A stretch of DNA of 39,767 bases from Pseudobdellovibrionaceae bacterium (GTDB lineage: Bacteria > Bdellovibrionota > Bdellovibrionia > Bdellovibrionales > JAMPXM01): the NCBI GenBank assembly GCA_947462815.1, contig CANHQR010000032.1:1-39767 (forward strand). The letters are read 5' to 3'. The position numbers and the translations under genes are program-made. The notes under the pieces are model-generated. The model saw only the letters and a program-made list of their open reading frames with translations. It did no database searches and was not told the origin of the DNA. Shown here piece after piece: positions 6,010-18,921 of the stretch. Numbering within the stretch: position 1 is the first letter of the stretch; every line of letters starts with the position of its first letter.

Positions 6010-6528
6010 TTAAGGTTTGGAACGCCCCGGTCGCGGCGTCGGAGTCGGAGCCTCCATCACGCTGACTTCGCTCGGAGAGGCGACAGGTGCCGGCGAAGGC
6101 GCCGGGCGAAGCACGAGATTTAATGAATCGGGCGACATGCTCACCAACTTCACGCCAAAGGGGAGTTCGATGTTGCGCGCTTGGATCGGCGCCATCACAG
6201 ACTTCGGCCGACCTTCCTGCACTTGTACCTTGGTCAGGTCAACCGTGACCGAGCCCGGCGACTGACCAAAGCGCTTCAGCGCTGTTCGCGGCCCCGAAAC
6301 CTTGACGGTGATTTTCTGTTCCGTAAGCGGCCCGCCTTGGGTGTTTTCTAAGATCACCGACTGCGGCAGCAAAAACTCCACATCCATTTCACGAGTCAGC
6401 ACAAAATCACGGCGACCCAAAATCGTGATCCAAAGAATCAATGTCACAAAGAGCGCGACAAGCTTGTAGCTGCCATTGTCGAGCAGCCATTCCTGCCAGT
6501 TTAGCTTAGGATTTCTCCTTGGACTCAT
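6010..6528 (-). CDS. YbbR-domain membrane-anchored protein (CdaR-like)
   Basis: This 172-residue protein has one N-terminal membrane segment (about 22-39, YKLVALFVTLILWITILG) followed by a single YbbR-like beta domain outside the cytoplasm, recognisable by LTEQKITVKVSGPRTAL and VTVDLTKVQVQEG. The tail is a Pro/Ala-rich stretch ending in basic residues. CdaR of Firmicutes usually has several YbbR repeats and regulates the diadenylate cyclase; here only one repeat is visible. The ATG overlaps the cdaA stop as ATGA (6525-6528), supporting a cyclase-regulator pair. Function as a CdaA regulator is inferred from this position. Confidence 0.85.
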   Translation of the reverse strand: MSPRRNPKLNWQEWLLDNGSYKLVALFVTLILWITILGRRDFVLTREMDVEFLLPQSVILENTQGGPLTEQKITVKVSGPRTALKRFGQSPGSVTVDLTKVQVQEGRPKSVMAPIQARNIELPFGVKLVSMSPDSLNLVLRPAPSPAPVASPSEVSVMEAPTPTPRPGRSKP

Positions 6529-7331
6529 GATATGCCCCCCGGTGACTGGGGTCGATACCTCAAGCCAAAACCCTCATAGAGCTTGCGGCGCAGCTCTGCG
6601 TGATCGAGATCATGGGCGAGCATCCCTGCCTCGACGACACCCACGCGATGGTTCTCTTCGCTCACCACAATCACAATCGCATCTGTCTCTTCAGCCAATC
6701 CCAAAGCTGCGCGATGCCGAGTCCCCAAGTTCTTATCCAGGACCGGATTTTTGGAAAGTGGCAAGAAGCAACCGGCCGCCCAAACCCGTCCGTTGCGAAT
6801 CACCACAGCTCCATCGTGCAGCGGAGAGTTCGGCTGAAAGAGTGAATACAAGATTTCCGCACTGACCACGGAGTCCATCTCCGTACCCACTTCGACGAAG
6901 TATTCTAAGTTGATCTCGCGTTCGATCACGATCAAAGCACCCAGCTTTTTTTGCGACAGACCGATCGCACCTTTGGCGATCTCCTCGACGATATGCGTTT
7001 CTTCAACGCGACTCACACCGGTGAAGAATGGATTCGAACCGATGTGCGCCAAGGCGCGACGAATTTCACCTTGGAATAAGATGACCACGATCAGAAACAG
7101 ATTGTTGAAGAACTTCTCAAGGATCCAGTTGAAGGTGAAAAGTTCCAACCAGATGGATCCGAGGTAAGCGATGGCCAAAATGCCGAGGCCCGAAAGCATC
7201 TGCACCGTACCAGTATGGCGAATCAAGACGAGAACGCGATAGACCACAACCCAAACGAGGGCCATGTCGAGCAGATCACGAGCGCGAAGCTGCGTGAAGA
7301 TAAACTGTAGGTTCTCCCAAATACCTTCCAC
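6525..7331 (-). CDS. cdaA: Membrane diadenylate cyclase CdaA (DisA_N domain)
   Basis: CdaA condenses two ATP to c-di-AMP at the membrane. The 268 residues show three hydrophobic segments in the first 90, then the DisA_N catalytic domain. The two signature motifs are intact: LHDGAVVI with DGA at 173-175 and GTRHRAALG with RHR at 205-207. The preceding SQKKLGALIVIERE segment is also typical. The start is a GTG at 7331 with GGGGA just upstream, closer than ideal. It lies 68 bases downstream of ftsH and overlaps the YbbR gene. In many bacteria folP or another gene sits between ftsH and this gene; none is present here. The product should be active, given the intact motifs. Confidence 0.95.
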   Translation of the reverse strand: MEGIWENLQFIFTQLRARDLLDMALVWVVVYRVLVLIRHTGTVQMLSGLGILAIAYLGSIWLELFTFNWILEKFFNNLFLIVVILFQGEIRRALAHIGSNPFFTGVSRVEETHIVEEIAKGAIGLSQKKLGALIVIEREINLEYFVEVGTEMDSVVSAEILYSLFQPNSPLHDGAVVIRNGRVWAAGCFLPLSKNPVLDKNLGTRHRAALGLAEETDAIVIVVSEENHRVGVVEAGMLAHDLDHAELRRKLYEGFGLRYRPQSPGGIS

Positions 7332-7399
7332 GATCCCCCGCGCTCAAGTCGTCAATGCCTGAAGTCTGTCCTGCGCGCTTCTTGTGGCCTGGCGAAACC

Positions 7400-9382
7400 T
7401 TAGCCCACAGGCGCGGGTTTAAGCCCGGCGCTCGCCGCTTCACGCGCGGCTTTTTCCGCGGCCTCGCGTTCCGCAGCTTCTTTCGCGTCCATTTCTTTTT
7501 GCGCCTGATCCAATTCAGCCTTGAGGCCGCGATCCTTGTCGCCGCGATCGCGCTTGATTTCATCGACGGAGGATCCCGCAATCAAGCGGTCGACTTCAGC
7601 TCCATCGATCGTCTCAAGCTCAAGCAGAGCTTGGGCCATGCGGTCTAAGGCATCGCGCTTTTCGATGAGGATCTGCTTGGCCTTCTCGTAAGCGGTATGG
7701 ATGATACTGTAGACTTCCTTATCGATTTCTTCCGCCTTGGCCTCGGAATAATCTCTCGAAGCCCCTTGCTGAAGACCCAAGAAAACGGGGCCCTCGCGTT
7801 TTTCGTAGGCCAAGGGGCCCAGGCGCGACATGCCCCACTCACACACCATACGGCGAGCCAGCTGTGTGGCGCGCTCGATATCATTGCCCGCGCCCGTCGT
7901 GTAGTCCGTGAAGACCAATTCCTCAGCAGCCCGACCTCCAAACAGAACCGTGATCATCGACTCCGCCTGAATTTTCGAAAAGGACAACTGATCCTTTTCC
8001 GGAAGATGCATGGTGAGTCCCAAAGCCATGCCTCGAGGAATGATGGTGACTTTGTGAATCGGATCGGTCTTTGGCAGGAGCTTGCTCACCAGAGCATGAC
8101 CGGCTTCATGATAGGCCGTGTTTTTCTTTTCATCTTCCGAGATCACCATCGAACGTCGCTCAGCACCCATCATCACCTTGTCGCGAGCGTATTCGAAGTC
8201 CTCCATCGTGAGCTTCGACTTCCCGGTTCGCGCCGCATTGAGTGCCGCTTCGTTCACCAGGTTTTCCAAATCAGCACCTGCAAATCCGGGCGTGCCTCGA
8301 GCGATCTTGTCGACATCGACATCGCTGGCGATCGGGGTCTTTTTGGTGTGAACCTCGATGATCTTTCGTCGTCCCGCAATATCCGGCTTGTTCACCACCA
8401 CACGACGATCGAAACGACCCGGTCGAAGCAGGGCCGGGTCCAAGACGTCGGGACGATTGGTCGCGGCGATCAAGATCACGCCATCATTCGACTCAAAGCC
8501 ATCCATCTCCACAAGCATTTGGTTGAGCGTCTGTTCGCGTTCGTCGTGACCGCCGCCCATGCCGGCACCCCGATGACGGCCAACGGCGTCGATCTCGTCG
8601 ATGAAGATCAAACAAGGTGCATTGCGCTTACCTTGTTCGAACAGGTCGCGAACGCGGGATGCTCCGACGCCGACGAACATCTCCACAAAGTCCGAACCCG
8701 AGATGGTGAAAAACGGCACACCCGCCTCACCGGCAACGGCGCGCGCCAGAAGCGTCTTACCCGTTCCGGGAGGTCCGACCAACAAGACACCTTTCGGGAT
8801 CCGTCCGCCGAGCTTGGTGAACTTTTTCGGATCCTTTAAAAACTGAACGATCTCGACCAAGTCTTCTTTGGCTTCTTCCACACCTGCGACGTCGGCAAAT
8901 GTGACTTTGATTTTATTCTCATTGAGAATCTTGTGTCGGCTTTTACCGAAGCTCATGGCTTTGCCGCCGCCGACCTGAATCTGTCGCATGATGAACATGA
9001 ACATCACGACAAACAATAAAATCGGCAACCAGTTGATCAGCAGCTGAGCCATCAAACCCGATGATTCCTCGTGATCATAGTTGGGCGTAATACCCAATCC
9101 TCGCACCAGTTCAAAACCGGAGTCCTCGGTGTTGCCTGCAACCTGGAACTGTTTACCTTTGAACTCTTGTTCAAACTCAGGCTTCACCTCGCCCACAATC
9201 ATGCCGCTCGACCGCTTGAAAGTGACGCTGGCAATTTTCCCGTCTTTGAGAGCTTGTACGAATCTTTCGTAGGTGAAGCCCGGAATCGCACCGAGTTTAC
9301 TCGCATGATGCATTTGAAAGAGAATCAGCGGAATCACTAGGAGAAAAACCCACAACGCCCACGCCTTATGCCCAGATTTCAT
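7400..9382 (-). CDS. ftsH: ATP-dependent zinc metalloprotease FtsH
   Basis: FtsH is a membrane AAA+ protease that extracts and degrades membrane and short-lived proteins. The 660 residues show a membrane segment near 7-23, a periplasmic domain, and a second membrane segment near 112-133. The AAA module follows with Walker A GPPGTGKT (203-210), Walker [11 protein letters not shown] (257-266) and the second region of homology ending RPGRFDRR. The zinc site is HEAGH at 425-429, with the third ligand expected at D501 in GAGNDIERA. The C-terminus is a charged Ala/Glu/Lys-rich coiled tail of about 50 residues. A strong ribosome site (AGGAG) precedes the ATG. It lies between tilS and cdaA on the same strand, with a 335-base leader that may hold its own promoter. 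Confidence 0.98.
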
Positions 9383-14795: not shown

Positions 14796-15272
14796 TCAGC
14801 GTCGAGGCGACGTTGAGGCGCAAAGCGTCGCAAGTTCAGCCTCGGCCGGGAGACTCGGCGGCCAGTTCGTGCTCCAAGTTTGAGCACGAAGCTTTTCGCG
14901 GACAGCGAGAGGCAAACGCGCGGGCCGAAGATCCGCCACCTGCATGGCGGTGAGATCCGTCTCACCTGTCACCACAAGCTCGCGTGTGGCCTGTGCAAAC
15001 ATCGCATAGCGAAATTGGATCAAGGCGCCCTGCAAGCGACCTTGGCAGGCCACCCAGGCGAGATCATCGAACTTCAAGGGCCGATGATAGCGAATGTCCA
15101 AGCGCAGCACCCCAAAGACCAAGGGGCCCCTCGGGATGTGTAAATCCATAAGTTCGTGGCGGCGCATCCATTCAACACGCGTCTCTTCGAAAACATGCAC
15201 ATGCTGGGAGTGATGCATGACGCCCATGGCGTCGGTGTTGCTGAAATGTACGCGACGGGCGAGCCAAAGCAT
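14796..15272 (-). CDS. 4HBT-fold acyl-CoA thioesterase (YbgC/FadM-like)
   Basis: This is a hot-dog-fold thioesterase. The N-terminal VHFSNTDAMGVMHHSQHVHV matches the family's active-site helix start, in which the Asp of TDAMG and the following His are typical. Further down are FEETRVEWMRRHEL and LDIRYHRPLKFDDL, also typical. The product is about 158 residues with a basic, less conserved tail. The ATG at 15272 overlaps the stop of the PilZ gene as TAATG, which is preferred over a TTG six codons upstream. The substrate is not evident; family members cleave short- to medium-chain acyl-CoA or act with Tol-Pal loci, but no tol gene is here. Confidence 0.85.
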   Translation of the reverse strand: MLWLARRVHFSNTDAMGVMHHSQHVHVFEETRVEWMRRHELMDLHIPRGPLVFGVLRLDIRYHRPLKFDDLAWVACQGRLQGALIQFRYAMFAQATRELVVTGETDLTAMQVADLRPARLPLAVREKLRAQTWSTNWPPSLPAEAELATLCASTSPRR

Positions 15273-16108
15273 TAGGCCGCCTGCGAGCAAATCGAAGTCA
15301 AATGCTTCACCAAGGCGGCGACGGGCTCGCCTCCACCGCGGATCTGAAGGGCCGCATCGAGAGCGAAGCTGGCCAATTTGCGGGGATCAGAAGGCTCGAG
15401 CTTCGAGTTCGCCTCTGGGTCGGGCTCCCAGGTCGCCAAGTCACCCGCTTGGGACTTCAACCAAAAAACCTTTTCGCCGACTTGCACCTGGGCCAACGAG
15501 AGCTGCGAGTTTTTAAACCACAGGATGAAGTTGGTATCGCGGGGACCTGAGTACCAGAAATCGAAGTCCTGACCCGCGTGAAAAAAGGCGCGATCGACAG
15601 CGCGCATATTCAATCCCACAAGCTTGGCATCCAAAAATCGATCGACATTCACATGCCCATCGACTTCGAGTTGCTCAAACTCGAAAGCCACGATCATCTC
15701 ATTGAATCGCGCGAGGCGACCCCGCACTTGAAAACTCGGCGATTGGCCGAGCGAAACCTCCAGATCATAACTTTGCCCAATGACCCATGGACGTAAAGCG
15801 CTCGGCGAACTCTCGGTGTACTGTCTGAGGGCAAGACCATTGTGGCTGAGATCCACAACCGGAGCATCGAGATTCTCGCGCAAAACTTTCGCCGTCGCTC
15901 CCGCGATTTGCGTGAGAACTTGCGCGGACTGTGGCCCCAGGCGCTCCGCCACGTCGACGACCAGGTTCACGCGCTTAAAACGCCGTGGATCGGGCTTGCC
16001 GGCCGTTCCCGCAGTCGAGGTGGAAACTGCCGAGGCTCCCGCCGAAGAGACGGCCGACGAGACCGAGTGATCACTTTTTAGTCCGAAGAGTTTTGCGAAA
16101 ATCGACAT
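15272..16108 (-). CDS. PilZ-domain protein (probable c-di-GMP receptor)
   Basis: The 278-residue protein begins MSIFAKLFGLKSD, followed by a Ser/Ala-rich linker. A PilZ-type pattern follows: RRFKR at 42-46 and VVDLSHNGLALR with D86, S88 and G91, corresponding to the RxxxR and DxSxxG signatures, although they lie farther apart than usual, so the fold may be PilZN/PilZ-like. The remaining half is a beta-rich domain containing FDFWYSGPRDTNFILWF. The ATG at 16108 is chosen over the open upstream frame because the product then starts with a typical N-terminus. It is coupled to the thioesterase by TAATG and is divergent from the cyclic-nucleotide protein gene. It is cytoplasmic. Confidence 0.7.
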   Translation of the reverse strand: MSIFAKLFGLKSDHSVSSAVSSAGASAVSTSTAGTAGKPDPRRFKRVNLVVDVAERLGPQSAQVLTQIAGATAKVLRENLDAPVVDLSHNGLALRQYTESSPSALRPWVIGQSYDLEVSLGQSPSFQVRGRLARFNEMIVAFEFEQLEVDGHVNVDRFLDAKLVGLNMRAVDRAFFHAGQDFDFWYSGPRDTNFILWFKNSQLSLAQVQVGEKVFWLKSQAGDLATWEPDPEANSKLEPSDPRKLASFALDAALQIRGGGEPVAALVKHLTSICSQAA

Positions 16109-16219
16109 GCTTTCATTGAAGTTCCCGAGCCTCCGACTGGTCAACATCGGTCCGCATCTCGAGGTCTCGTCCAACTCGCCGCATTTGAATTGCATAGGAT
16201 GCATCGGTCCCAGTCCCGA

Positions 16220-16296: not shown

Positions 16297-18459
16297 ATGC
16301 CGAATACAAACGCTCCTGCCGTTCCATCCGCAACTGCGACTCAGACCGGGGTTGCCCCGACCTCCCCCGCCTCCCTCCAAGACGTGCGACCTCGCCTCAA
16401 GCCGGGCCAAGCTTTTGTCTCGGACGCACGTGTGATTTGGGAGCGCATCGAGGGCGCGAAGCAAGTCACGCTACCCGCCGAGATCGCGCCCATGCTGAGC
16501 CTACTGGACGGGACGCGAAGCATTCCGCAGGTGATCGAGGAGCTGCAGCGGCGATTGGGTCGCGTGCCCTTTAAGTCGTTCTTTGGCAGCTTGCAGAAAC
16601 TTCAAGCTCAAGGCTTTCTGGAAAATGCCGAGTCGCTGGCCGATCAGGGTGCTCAAGCGCGCGCGGAAATGTTCGAACGAGAGCCCGTCTGGATCTCGCG
16701 ACCTATTTTCAGCTTACCTATCATTCCGCGCATGAGTTTTGGCCGCCCCTCTCTTTTGGCGTTTTATGTGTTCGCTGCCGGATCGGCACTCATCACTCTC
16801 TTGTTTCTTTTTAATGCCTACCAAAATGGACACTTGGAAGTTCCTGGACAGTTTCTCTTTATCGATAACTCGCATGCCTTGGGTTTGGTGTTTCTCTTTG
16901 CAGCTTGCTCCATTCTGATTTCTGCGAAGACGCTGTTCAAAGCCCTGCTCTCCATTCTGCTCACAGGACGCATCAGCCAAATCCGTCTAGAACTGAATCT
17001 CTTCTCTCTCGCACTGCGATCCCACGACGAAACTCTCTATTTGGCCGGAGATCGCTGGACAGGAATCTTGGCTATGGCGGGAGTCGGCTGTTCGCAGTTT
17101 TTCTTCTTTGCCATTGCCTCCGGAGCCGCACCCCAGTGGTCACTTCTCACCGATTTGTTCTGGGTGTCGATGCTTCTCGCGCTTGTCGATCTCAATCCGT
17201 TTCGCCGCTCCGAACTCTCGAGCTTCTTCAATATCGTTTATAACCAAAGCTCGGCCGCTCACATGCTGCCCTATCTCAAGAATCGCGGTCTGTTTGCGAG
17301 CATCGGCCGCAAAGATCAGCTCGCGGATCAAGGTATTTACACGGCCTATTCGATTCTCGCCATGCTTTGGGTGATGACGGCCTACAACCTTTTCATCCAT
17401 TTGCTCAATCGCAACTACGCGCCCCTCGCTTCGAGCCTCCATCGAGGCCTCAGCGGCGATTTACCGTTGGCGGAGCTTGTGGCGAGCGGCTTGATTTTAG
17501 GCGGCTTAGTCCTGATGTCTGGCGCGATGGTGATCGATCTATTGCGCACGCTCTCACAAAACGTGCTCCACCCCTTAAGCCAGAAGCGAATTCGCGCACG
17601 CGCCTCGCGCGCCACCACATCCACGCAGATCTCTGACCCTCGCGAGTTTGCCGCAACTTTGAAGGATCTTCCGCTGTTTCAGGGACTCGCCATCGAGTCG
17701 ATTCAATTTCTGCTTGGCAAAGGCTCGATTCGTCAGGTTCCGCCCGAGGTCCACGTCATCATCCAAGAGACTGACTCCGACGAACTCTTCATTTTGTTGG
17801 ATGGCGAAGTGGCGATTCAAAAGCGCCACCCGACAGGTGCCACCTCAGAGATCGCACGGCTTCGACCCATCACCATTTTCGGCGAGAACACGTTGATGGA
17901 AAACGCCCGTCGTTCGGCCGACGTCGTCGCCACGGCCACCACTCGCCTTATTGCCATTCCTCGCTCCGCGGTCGAAGAGCTTCGGCAGATGCCCGAGTTC
18001 AAACACGATTTCGACCAGATTCTCGATCGCCTCATGCTGGGCCAATACATCGGCTCAAGCGAGCTCTTCCGCGAAGCGCCGCGCGAAGCCGTCTCTGTCT
18101 TCTTGAACGCCGGCGAACTGATGAGTCTTCCTTCGGGCCGACCTGTGATCGAACAAGGCCGAAGCGACAAAGACTTTTACCTGCTTGTACGAGGATCCGT
18201 GGACGTCATTCACGATGGTCGTGTGATCAAAACTCTTCAGCAGGGCGACTTCTTCGGCGAGATGGCACTGATCCTTAATGCGCCTCGAAACTCGACCGTG
18301 ATGACTCGCGAGAACTGTCGGCTGCTCAAACTCTCTGCCGACGCGTTCTGGGGCGTGCTCTCGCAACACGCTTCGCTCGCGCTGTTTTTGGAAACCATCT
18401 CAGAAATGCGTCAACAAGAAACCGAACACAACGGCACCGGACAAGTGCGCTTGGCCTAA
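16297..18459 (+). CDS. PqqD-like / degenerate S2P-like membrane / dual cNMP-binding protein
   Basis: This 720-residue protein has an unusual architecture. Residues about 30-108 resemble the PqqD/RRE winged-helix fold, with PRLKPGQAFVSDARVIWERI and later LLDGTRSIPQVIEEL. Residues about 150-430 hold several membrane helices laid out like the M50 (site-2 protease) proteins of peptide-maturation clusters: a helix, then LLTGRISQIRLEL, then DRWTGILAMAGV, then DLNPFRRSELSSFF. The HExxH zinc motif expected before the first block is missing (SAKTLFKALL stands there), and the usual NPxxxxDG is replaced by NPFRRSE. Two cyclic-nucleotide-binding domains follow. The first has a weakened cassette (FGENTLMENARRSADV, from about 528); the second has a canonical one (FGEMALILNAPRNSTV, from about 653). 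A GGAGG lies 14 bases before the ATG. It is probably a non-proteolytic membrane sensor. Confidence 0.8.
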   Translation: MPNTNAPAVPSATATQTGVAPTSPASLQDVRPRLKPGQAFVSDARVIWERIEGAKQVTLPAEIAPMLSLLDGTRSIPQVIEELQRRLGRVPFKSFFGSLQKLQAQGFLENAESLADQGAQARAEMFEREPVWISRPIFSLPIIPRMSFGRPSLLAFYVFAAGSALITLLFLFNAYQNGHLEVPGQFLFIDNSHALGLVFLFAACSILISAKTLFKALLSILLTGRISQIRLELNLFSLALRSHDETLYLAGDRWTGILAMAGVGCSQFFFFAIASGAAPQWSLLTDLFWVSMLLALVDLNPFRRSELSSFFNIVYNQSSAAHMLPYLKNRGLFASIGRKDQLADQGIYTAYSILAMLWVMTAYNLFIHLLNRNYAPLASSLHRGLSGDLPLAELVASGLILGGLVLMSGAMVIDLLRTLSQNVLHPLSQKRIRARASRATTSTQISDPREFAATLKDLPLFQGLAIESIQFLLGKGSIRQVPPEVHVIIQETDSDELFILLDGEVAIQKRHPTGATSEIARLRPITIFGENTLMENARRSADVVATATTRLIAIPRSAVEELRQMPEFKHDFDQILDRLMLGQYIGSSELFREAPREAVSVFLNAGELMSLPSGRPVIEQGRSDKDFYLLVRGSVDVIHDGRVIKTLQQGDFFGEMALILNAPRNSTVMTRENCRLLKLSADAFWGVLSQHASLALFLETISEMRQQETEHNGTGQVRLA

Positions 18460-18528: not shown

Positions 18529-18921
18529 ATGATCGAAGCCATTGCTAAATCTATTCCCGTTGTCACGATGGCCGGCGGCGCCGCAGCCTCCAGCGATGAG
18601 ATTAAAGCGCAAATTCAAAAGGTCATCGAAACAACGAAAGTGATCGCCACCCAGCAGGAAGTGAATGACATCGCCAAGATGATCTACCTGGATACGATCG
18701 ATGGCTCACACCCCAAAGTCTCCGAATTCGCGGCCTATCTTCAACGCAACATGATGACCAAAAACAATATCCAGCGCGACACGAGCAAAGACCAGTGGGG
18801 CACGGCCTACGTGCTTCGCTACGACAAAAACAAAAATGAACTGCGCGTCTCTTCAGCCGGGCCCGACATGAAATTGAACACACCCGACGACATTATTGCG
18901 GCCTATCCCTACAAGCCCTGA
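18529..18921 (+). CDS. Small pseudopilin-like (GspG C-terminal type) protein
   Basis: This 130-residue protein has a C-terminal half like the globular end of the type II secretion pseudopilin GspG: KDQWGTAYVLRYD followed by ELRVSSAGPDMKLNTPDDI, the loop that binds calcium in GspG. The N-terminus lacks the prepilin motif and the long hydrophobic helix. It has only a short mild segment, IPVVTMAGGAAASSDE, followed by a helix. A strong ribosome site (AAGGAG) precedes the ATG. It lies 69 bases after the PqqD/cNMP gene on the same strand, and a hairpin follows it, so the two look like an operon. It could be a client of the upstream membrane protein; that is inference. No other secretion-system gene is in the window. 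Confidence 0.75.
   Translation: MIEAIAKSIPVVTMAGGAAASSDEIKAQIQKVIETTKVIATQQEVNDIAKMIYLDTIDGSHPKVSEFAAYLQRNMMTKNNIQRDTSKDQWGTAYVLRYDKNKNELRVSSAGPDMKLNTPDDIIAAYPYKP

Follow-up and report, generated by a model that had tools for sequence, protein, structure and literature searches.

We describe a protein from a Pseudobdellovibrionaceae bacterium (Bdellovibrionota) that almost certainly combines an RRE/PqqD-like domain, an M50-type membrane core without its zinc site and two cyclic-nucleotide-binding (CNB) domains. Because an RRE-like domain, a site-2-protease (S2P)-type core without a zinc site and two CNBs are joined in one chain, the analysis supports a signalling role at the membrane and descent of the protein from the RRE-M50 architecture of RiPP maturation. 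A preliminary description, made from the sequence alone, had proposed a membrane signalling protein built from RiPP maturation parts; the RRE-M50 ancestry is upheld by profile alignment (hhalign) and by fold, but the window holds no RiPP context. The window (39,767 nt) is positions 1-39,767 of contig CANHQR010000032.1, forward strand, of assembly GCA_947462815.1, a draft genome of 3.4 Mb. Our literature search found no paper combining PqqD, M50 and cyclic-nucleotide binding, and none combining RRE and CNB.

Domain architecture

The protein and its N-terminal domain are encoded as follows:

16297-18459, forward strand: main open reading frame, 720 aa; RRE/PqqD-like domain, pseudo-site-2-protease membrane core and two CNB domains
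16369-16641, forward strand: RRE/PqqD-like winged-helix domain, residues ~25-115; VIA-align fold matches and hhalign E 9.5e-6

Pfam assigned two cNMP_binding stretches to the protein (E 1.2e-37). In residues 1-450 no Pfam family reached threshold, and neither M50 nor PqqD did so in scans against Pfam and NCBIfam. The Fur, cupin and PaaA-like_N matches that these scans gave in the same residues were all sub-threshold and were set aside, and a profile search of the N-terminal part against solved structures returned FurB as its sole match, at chance level. Domain identities were checked independently, by hhalign against active PqqD-like/M50/HlyD proteins and by comparing AlphaFold models with the PDB; since the structure search with the full-length model was filled by CNB domains, a second AlphaFold model was made of residues 24-445 (mean pLDDT 88). 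Both lines of evidence bear out the order first read from the sequence (PqqD-like, M50-like, CNB, CNB), with the winged helix at residues ~25-115, the M50 core at ~150-430 and the two CNBs at ~455-715. The two motifs quoted in that reading, TGRISQIRLEL and DLNPF, are both present.

After realignment, the best PDB matches of the N-terminal domain were mostly RREs (Z 7.2-8.9). In VIA-align these were the TbiB1 RRE (5v1v, Z 8.9), TruD (4bs9, Z 8.0), the PbtF RRE (8t19, Z 8.0) and PqqD itself (5sxy, Z 7.2), and the domain alone aligned with the N-termini of active M50 proteins at the E value given above; the suggested resemblance to PqqD is confirmed by these fold matches and this alignment. The curated Pfam cut-off for PqqD (PF05402) was reached by none of the 45 family members (best E 0.011). 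Elsewhere in the genome that carries the window, no PqqD was found above threshold; a methyltransferase-like open reading frame there (L139:265-1656, forward strand) ends in a weak PqqD-like domain. RRE domains usually bind N-terminal leaders, and that of the main protein may still bind a peptide.

A membrane core that has lost its zinc site

Three features define the membrane part:

16753-17577, forward strand: pseudo-M50 membrane core, with predicted helices at residues 153-176, 193-223, 253-277, 284-298, 339-385 and 391-427
16927-16941, forward strand: former HExxH position, K211-T-L-F-K215; K/R at 211 in 40/45 members
17188-17220, forward strand: NPxxxxDG remnant, D298-LNPFRRSELS-308; P301 in 45/45 members, S305 in 40/45

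We aligned 45 sequences of the family and compared them with the active RRE-M50-HlyD proteins of the phylum using hhalign, which gave a probability of 97.1 (E 7.5e-11, 336 columns). The membrane part alone matched the active proteins with E 3.8e-7; reversed or column-shuffled controls gave E 0.37-0.82 and the CNB half gave E 0.53. In structure comparison, the predicted membrane core matched SpoIVFB (8vjm; Z 8.3, 177 residues, 6.6 A) and MjS2P (3b4r; Z 6.0, 173 residues), Z values that are modest for a helical bundle when taken alone but that, together with the profile result, argue convincingly for an S2P fold. The M50-like core of the preliminary description thus rests on an alignment with clean controls as well as on the SpoIVFB match.

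Reading the hhalign register by eye, together with the SYxxG and TG/GG motifs on either side, placed the HEFGH of active proteins on residues 211-215. By hhalign, the active NPLxKLDGY falls on NPFRRSELS (residues 300-308), with NP kept and Asp-Gly replaced. The loss of HExxH and of the DG of NPxxxxDG, first noticed in this one protein, extends to the entire alignment: HExxH is kept in 0/45 members, and no zinc-site histidine or glutamate, nor the DG aspartate, remains in any of the 45. An intact zinc site at this position in any homologue, named beforehand as what would speak against this register, was looked for and not found (0/45). Since the zinc site is missing from all 45 homologues, we are dealing with a conserved pseudoprotease family and not with local decay, and the loss is family-wide and ancient. 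The dN/dS of the membrane domain is 0.04-0.09 in three close genome pairs, and the dead protease is therefore maintained. Decay of the window copy alone was considered and is ruled out by the family alignment together with dN/dS. W358 is invariant, as is P301, lysine or arginine is conserved at the old zinc position, and the conserved charged residues K211, D/E298 and E/D306 stand at the site of the former active centre.

Averaged over the 45 sequences, lysine plus arginine counts are 1.2, 0.3 and 0.5 in outer loops 1, 3 and 5, 2.7 and 6.2 in inner loops 2 and 4, 3.5 ahead of helix 1 and 6.2 past helix 6, a distribution that fits a predicted topology of six helices with both termini cytosolic. 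The CNBs are attached directly after helix 6, where active relatives have instead a further hydrophobic segment leading into HlyD.

Two CNB domains with conserved ligand residues

The C-terminal part holds two domains:

17659-17980, forward strand: CNB1, residues ~455-562; FGE (528-530) and R539-S-A; Pfam PF00027
18055-18435, forward strand: CNB2, residues ~587-713; FFGE (652-655) and R664; Pfam PF00027

The motif of CNB1 is FGENTL...RRSADV, with E530 and R539, and that of CNB2 is FFGEMAL...PRNSTV, with E655 and R664. These four glutamate and arginine residues are each conserved in 39-44 of the 45 members, and the phosphate-binding cassettes (G529-E530/R539 and G654-E655/R664) in 39-45. The preliminary description was right to count two CNBs (PF00027), but the decay that it ascribed to one of them is not seen: neither is decayed, because both keep the ligand-binding glutamate and arginine. 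Structure comparison placed the CNB half on the tandem CNB of Bcy1 (3of1; Z 18.9, 243 residues), and single-CNB matches included SthK (4d7t; Z 20.9, for CNB2) and HCN2 (Z ~21). CNB2 is the slowest-evolving part of the protein (dN/dS 0.007-0.016). The CNBs of the main protein may bind cAMP or cGMP; three class III cyclases are encoded in the same genome. An ion-channel-like open reading frame with a CNB domain was also found there (L003:404-1669, reverse strand).

The family and its active relatives

Residues 1-460 were matched in 24 of 99 relatives; searching 369 genomes of the phylum with a profile found 57, some through the N-terminal domain only. A scan of genome contigs with the single protein gave two loci, both in metagenome-assembled genomes labelled Bdellovibrionota/Bdellovibrionaceae, and tblastn of residues 1-460 against plasmids gave no match. 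In nearly all aligned members the N-terminal domain is followed by the membrane part and then by two CNBs; two members (L016:1501-3150 and L020:1459-3156) have lost one CNB. The genome that carries the window has a second paralogue (L002:1471-3495, reverse strand, contig 35; 674 aa) with the same order of parts; it has lost the NP motif too and groups with L030, L077, L078 and L136.

A DNA pattern for NPxxKxDGY picked out active relatives in 10 of the 369 genomes. They carry an N-terminal domain of the same kind, an intact HExxH and NPLxKLDGY, and all full-length ones except one have an HlyD-like C-terminal region (for L085, Pfam confirmed both M50 and HlyD). One active relative, L095:499-2763 (forward strand), has HExxH and an RRE-like start, has no HlyD and shows the SYxxG of the dead family; it is a possible intermediate. 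On a single contig (L117; genome G159, contig 39), an active RRE-M50-HlyD gene at ~29.3 kb and a dead family member at ~44.4 kb occur together.

Soluble relatives with RRE-CNB-CNB and no membrane part are also present (L119-L125 and L082-L084, 377-500 aa; also L029). Because such paralogues exist, not every function requires the pseudo-M50 core. Three of them (L121, L123 and L125) lie behind a gene for a beta-propeller-like lipoprotein and a small lipoprotein gene.

Conserved neighbouring genes

The main gene is flanked by two others:

18529-18921, forward strand: GspG-like small protein gene, 130 aa, directly downstream of the main open reading frame; GGAG-type ribosome site at ~18518
15272-16204, reverse strand: PilZ-domain protein gene, 310 aa, divergent; RxxxR (RRFKR) and DxSxxG (DLSHNG); Pfam PilZ E 6e-4, just below cut-off

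We compared 41 neighbourhoods, 34 with the full-length gene and 7 with a soluble RRE-CNB-CNB relative. Both flanking genes, which had been missed in the earlier reading, emerged as conserved neighbours of the full-length gene, GspG-like in 15/34 and PilZ in 16/34, counts that include related genomes and so do not represent independent events. The GspG-like gene lies directly downstream and in most cases overlaps the family gene at ATGA; in the window, a gap of 69 bases separates it from the main gene and its ribosome site is good. Five of the 15 were held out of profile building (L109, L111, L128, L137 and L138), and one of these, L128, diverges most from the rest of the family. When the GspG-like profile was searched against 359 genomes, 24 strong matches were obtained (E 2.5e-18 or better), 22 of which, judged by coordinates, stand directly behind a family gene (Fisher p 5.6e-18, approximate, with a 369-genome tally set against the 359-genome search). 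The gene is absent in the f4 clade and in divergent subfamilies, including the paralogue L002, and is therefore not required by every member.

In the GspG-like protein, Pro10 is invariant and lies in a hydrophobic segment at the N-terminus, and the C-terminus carries a SAGPDxxxxTxDD loop resembling that of GspG. Pfam T2SSG scored 20.6 bits on the window protein (cut-off 21; E 4.7e-4) and 24.0 bits, above cut-off, on that of L116. A prepilin-peptidase site (G before F/M, E at +5) with a long N-terminal helix was seen in 0/10 aligned GspG-like sequences. In the f12 family (L109, L110, L112 and L137), the GspG-like proteins end in a tail of repeated (Y/F)DxxG(Y/F)D units.

The PilZ gene adjoins the family gene in five held-out neighbourhoods among its 16. 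It is divergent in the window's own family and co-directional and overlapping in the f4 clade, where Pfam PilZ is above cut-off in L107 and L118; the PilZ groups of the two clades are collinear over 224 columns, with weak statistics (hhalign P 0.0046). Both the GspG-like and PilZ genes are present in the window, whose family is the one with both.

The wider surroundings are mostly housekeeping genes (GlmM, CdaA, FtsH, TilS, GlpX, thioesterase, YceD, P-type ATPase, DsbD and HrpB). The c-di-AMP cyclase CdaA lies beside FtsH and GlmM at 6525-9382 (reverse strand), a housekeeping arrangement of known type. Pfam scans of the main open reading frames of the 40-kb window found no radical-SAM, YcaO, cyclodehydratase or peptide exporter gene and no RiPP precursor gene, and the main gene is not in a RiPP cluster.

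Proposed mechanism and alternatives

Domain identities, absence of the zinc site, purifying selection, CNB ligand residues and gene linkage form the computed basis of the reading that we tentatively favour, giving it a little less than an even chance: a pseudoprotease adaptor, gated by cyclic nucleotides, that binds the GspG-like partner without cutting it. To this basis it adds a predicted topology, a presumed ligand, a putative physical contact with the GspG-like protein and a proposed hold/release switch. In active homologues the RRE grips a peptide and the membrane part cuts it. Because the cutting site is lost, the binding parts and CNBs are kept and a pilin-like or PilZ partner gene is usually adjacent, the protein probably holds or releases a partner on a signal instead of cutting it; with nucleotide sensors added, a regulated hold-and-release adaptor would be the simplest reading. 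The cytosolic RRE and the zinc-less six-helix core may jointly form the site where a peptide or membrane segment of the partner binds, and binding of cAMP (or another cyclic mononucleotide) to the cytosolic CNBs on the last helix would alter the hold on it. The likeliest partner would be the GspG-like protein encoded directly downstream, whose short N-terminal hydrophobic segment with its invariant proline resembles the bent helices accepted by site-2 proteases. In the window's family of genomes, the adjacent PilZ protein may supply a c-di-GMP input. That all this amounts to an undescribed system, in which cyclic nucleotides (with c-di-GMP through PilZ in some lineages) control a zinc-less S2P whose client, a GspG-like protein, is captured by its N-terminal membrane segment, is possible and more doubtful.

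It is unlikely that the membrane core is a mere anchor and that the working unit is the RRE with the tandem CNB, acting as a cyclic-nucleotide-controlled peptide clamp. The soluble relatives that have RRE and two CNBs with no membrane part (L029, L082-L084) are in its favour, as is the slow evolution of CNB2, but the dN/dS of the membrane part, the invariant P301 and W358 and the K/R at the zinc position exceed what an anchor would need.

We consider it decidedly unlikely that the M50 scaffold is a cyclic-nucleotide-gated exporter or channel that passes a small protein or peptide through the membrane uncut. EpeP, an M50 protein of B. subtilis, is believed to export its peptide as well as cut it (PMC10885120), CNBs gate channels, with SthK and HCN among the top structure matches, and the six predicted helices with cytosolic ends would suit such a role. 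However, no transporter signature was found, nor any fold match beyond the S2P type, and the HlyD part, which is tied to export in active relatives, is gone.

It is highly improbable that the protein remains part of a RiPP-like pathway in which its RRE recognises the GspG-like protein as a precursor. The ligand preference of RREs and the conserved GspG-like N-terminus would agree with it, and RRE-M50 proteins are part of RiPP gene sets (PMC10885120), but the Pfam-scanned window has none of the RiPP genes listed above, the partner is a folded GspG-like domain and not a short precursor, and the genome has no other PqqD over threshold.

A metal-independent or atypical active protease with a re-invented site is barely credible: the charged residues conserved at the old active site would be in keeping with one, but none of the 45 members retains H, E, H or the DG aspartate, and no intramembrane protease is known to have such a site.

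Comparison with known systems

The RRE/PqqD-M50(-HlyD) proteins of RiPP clusters have an RRE-like domain and a six-helix M50 core in the same order as here. The main family differs in having no zinc ligands, two CNBs in place of the seventh helix and HlyD, and no RiPP genes nearby. The M50 proteases TglG, TmoG and EpeP cut RiPP precursors (PMC10885120). SpoIVFB and MjS2P can be aligned with the predicted membrane fold, but the main protein has no HExxH, has NPxxxxDG reduced to NP and carries an added N-terminal RRE; where SpoIVFB has a CBS domain, it has the tandem CNB.

The CNB fold, tandem or single, and its ligand residues are shared with the PKA regulatory subunit and SthK-type proteins, in which the CNBs are joined to an inhibitor segment or an ion pore and not to a pseudoprotease. 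The TIGR03896 "bacteriocin-type transport-associated" proteins likewise have two CNBs, but they are not described as having an RRE or M50 part. Membership of that family was rejected at 54.9 bits, far under the cut-off of 161, a cut-off that all CNB proteins approach. Within the phylum, Bd1971 of Bdellovibrio is a signalling protein that links cAMP and c-di-GMP, its cAMP-binding CNB switching a c-di-GMP phosphodiesterase partner domain (PMC6717892); cAMP signalling of this general type therefore exists in Bdellovibrionota. Unlike the main protein, Bd1971 is a soluble EAL-domain enzyme and has no RRE or membrane part.

By analogy, the iRhom and derlin pseudoproteases likewise retain a dead intramembrane protease fold under selection and are thought to act by binding clients (PMC3149277). 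They differ in that the rhomboid fold is unrelated to S2P, the proteins are eukaryotic and they have no nucleotide sensor.

Significance

Dead intramembrane proteases that serve as regulated binding proteins are known chiefly from eukaryotic rhomboids. If our reading is true, this family would be a bacterial counterpart of the iRhom idea on an S2P fold, carrying its own nucleotide sensor and having a partner gene linked to it, which together would make client binding without cutting directly testable. It also illustrates how an RRE domain can be taken into signalling where no RiPP pathway is visible.
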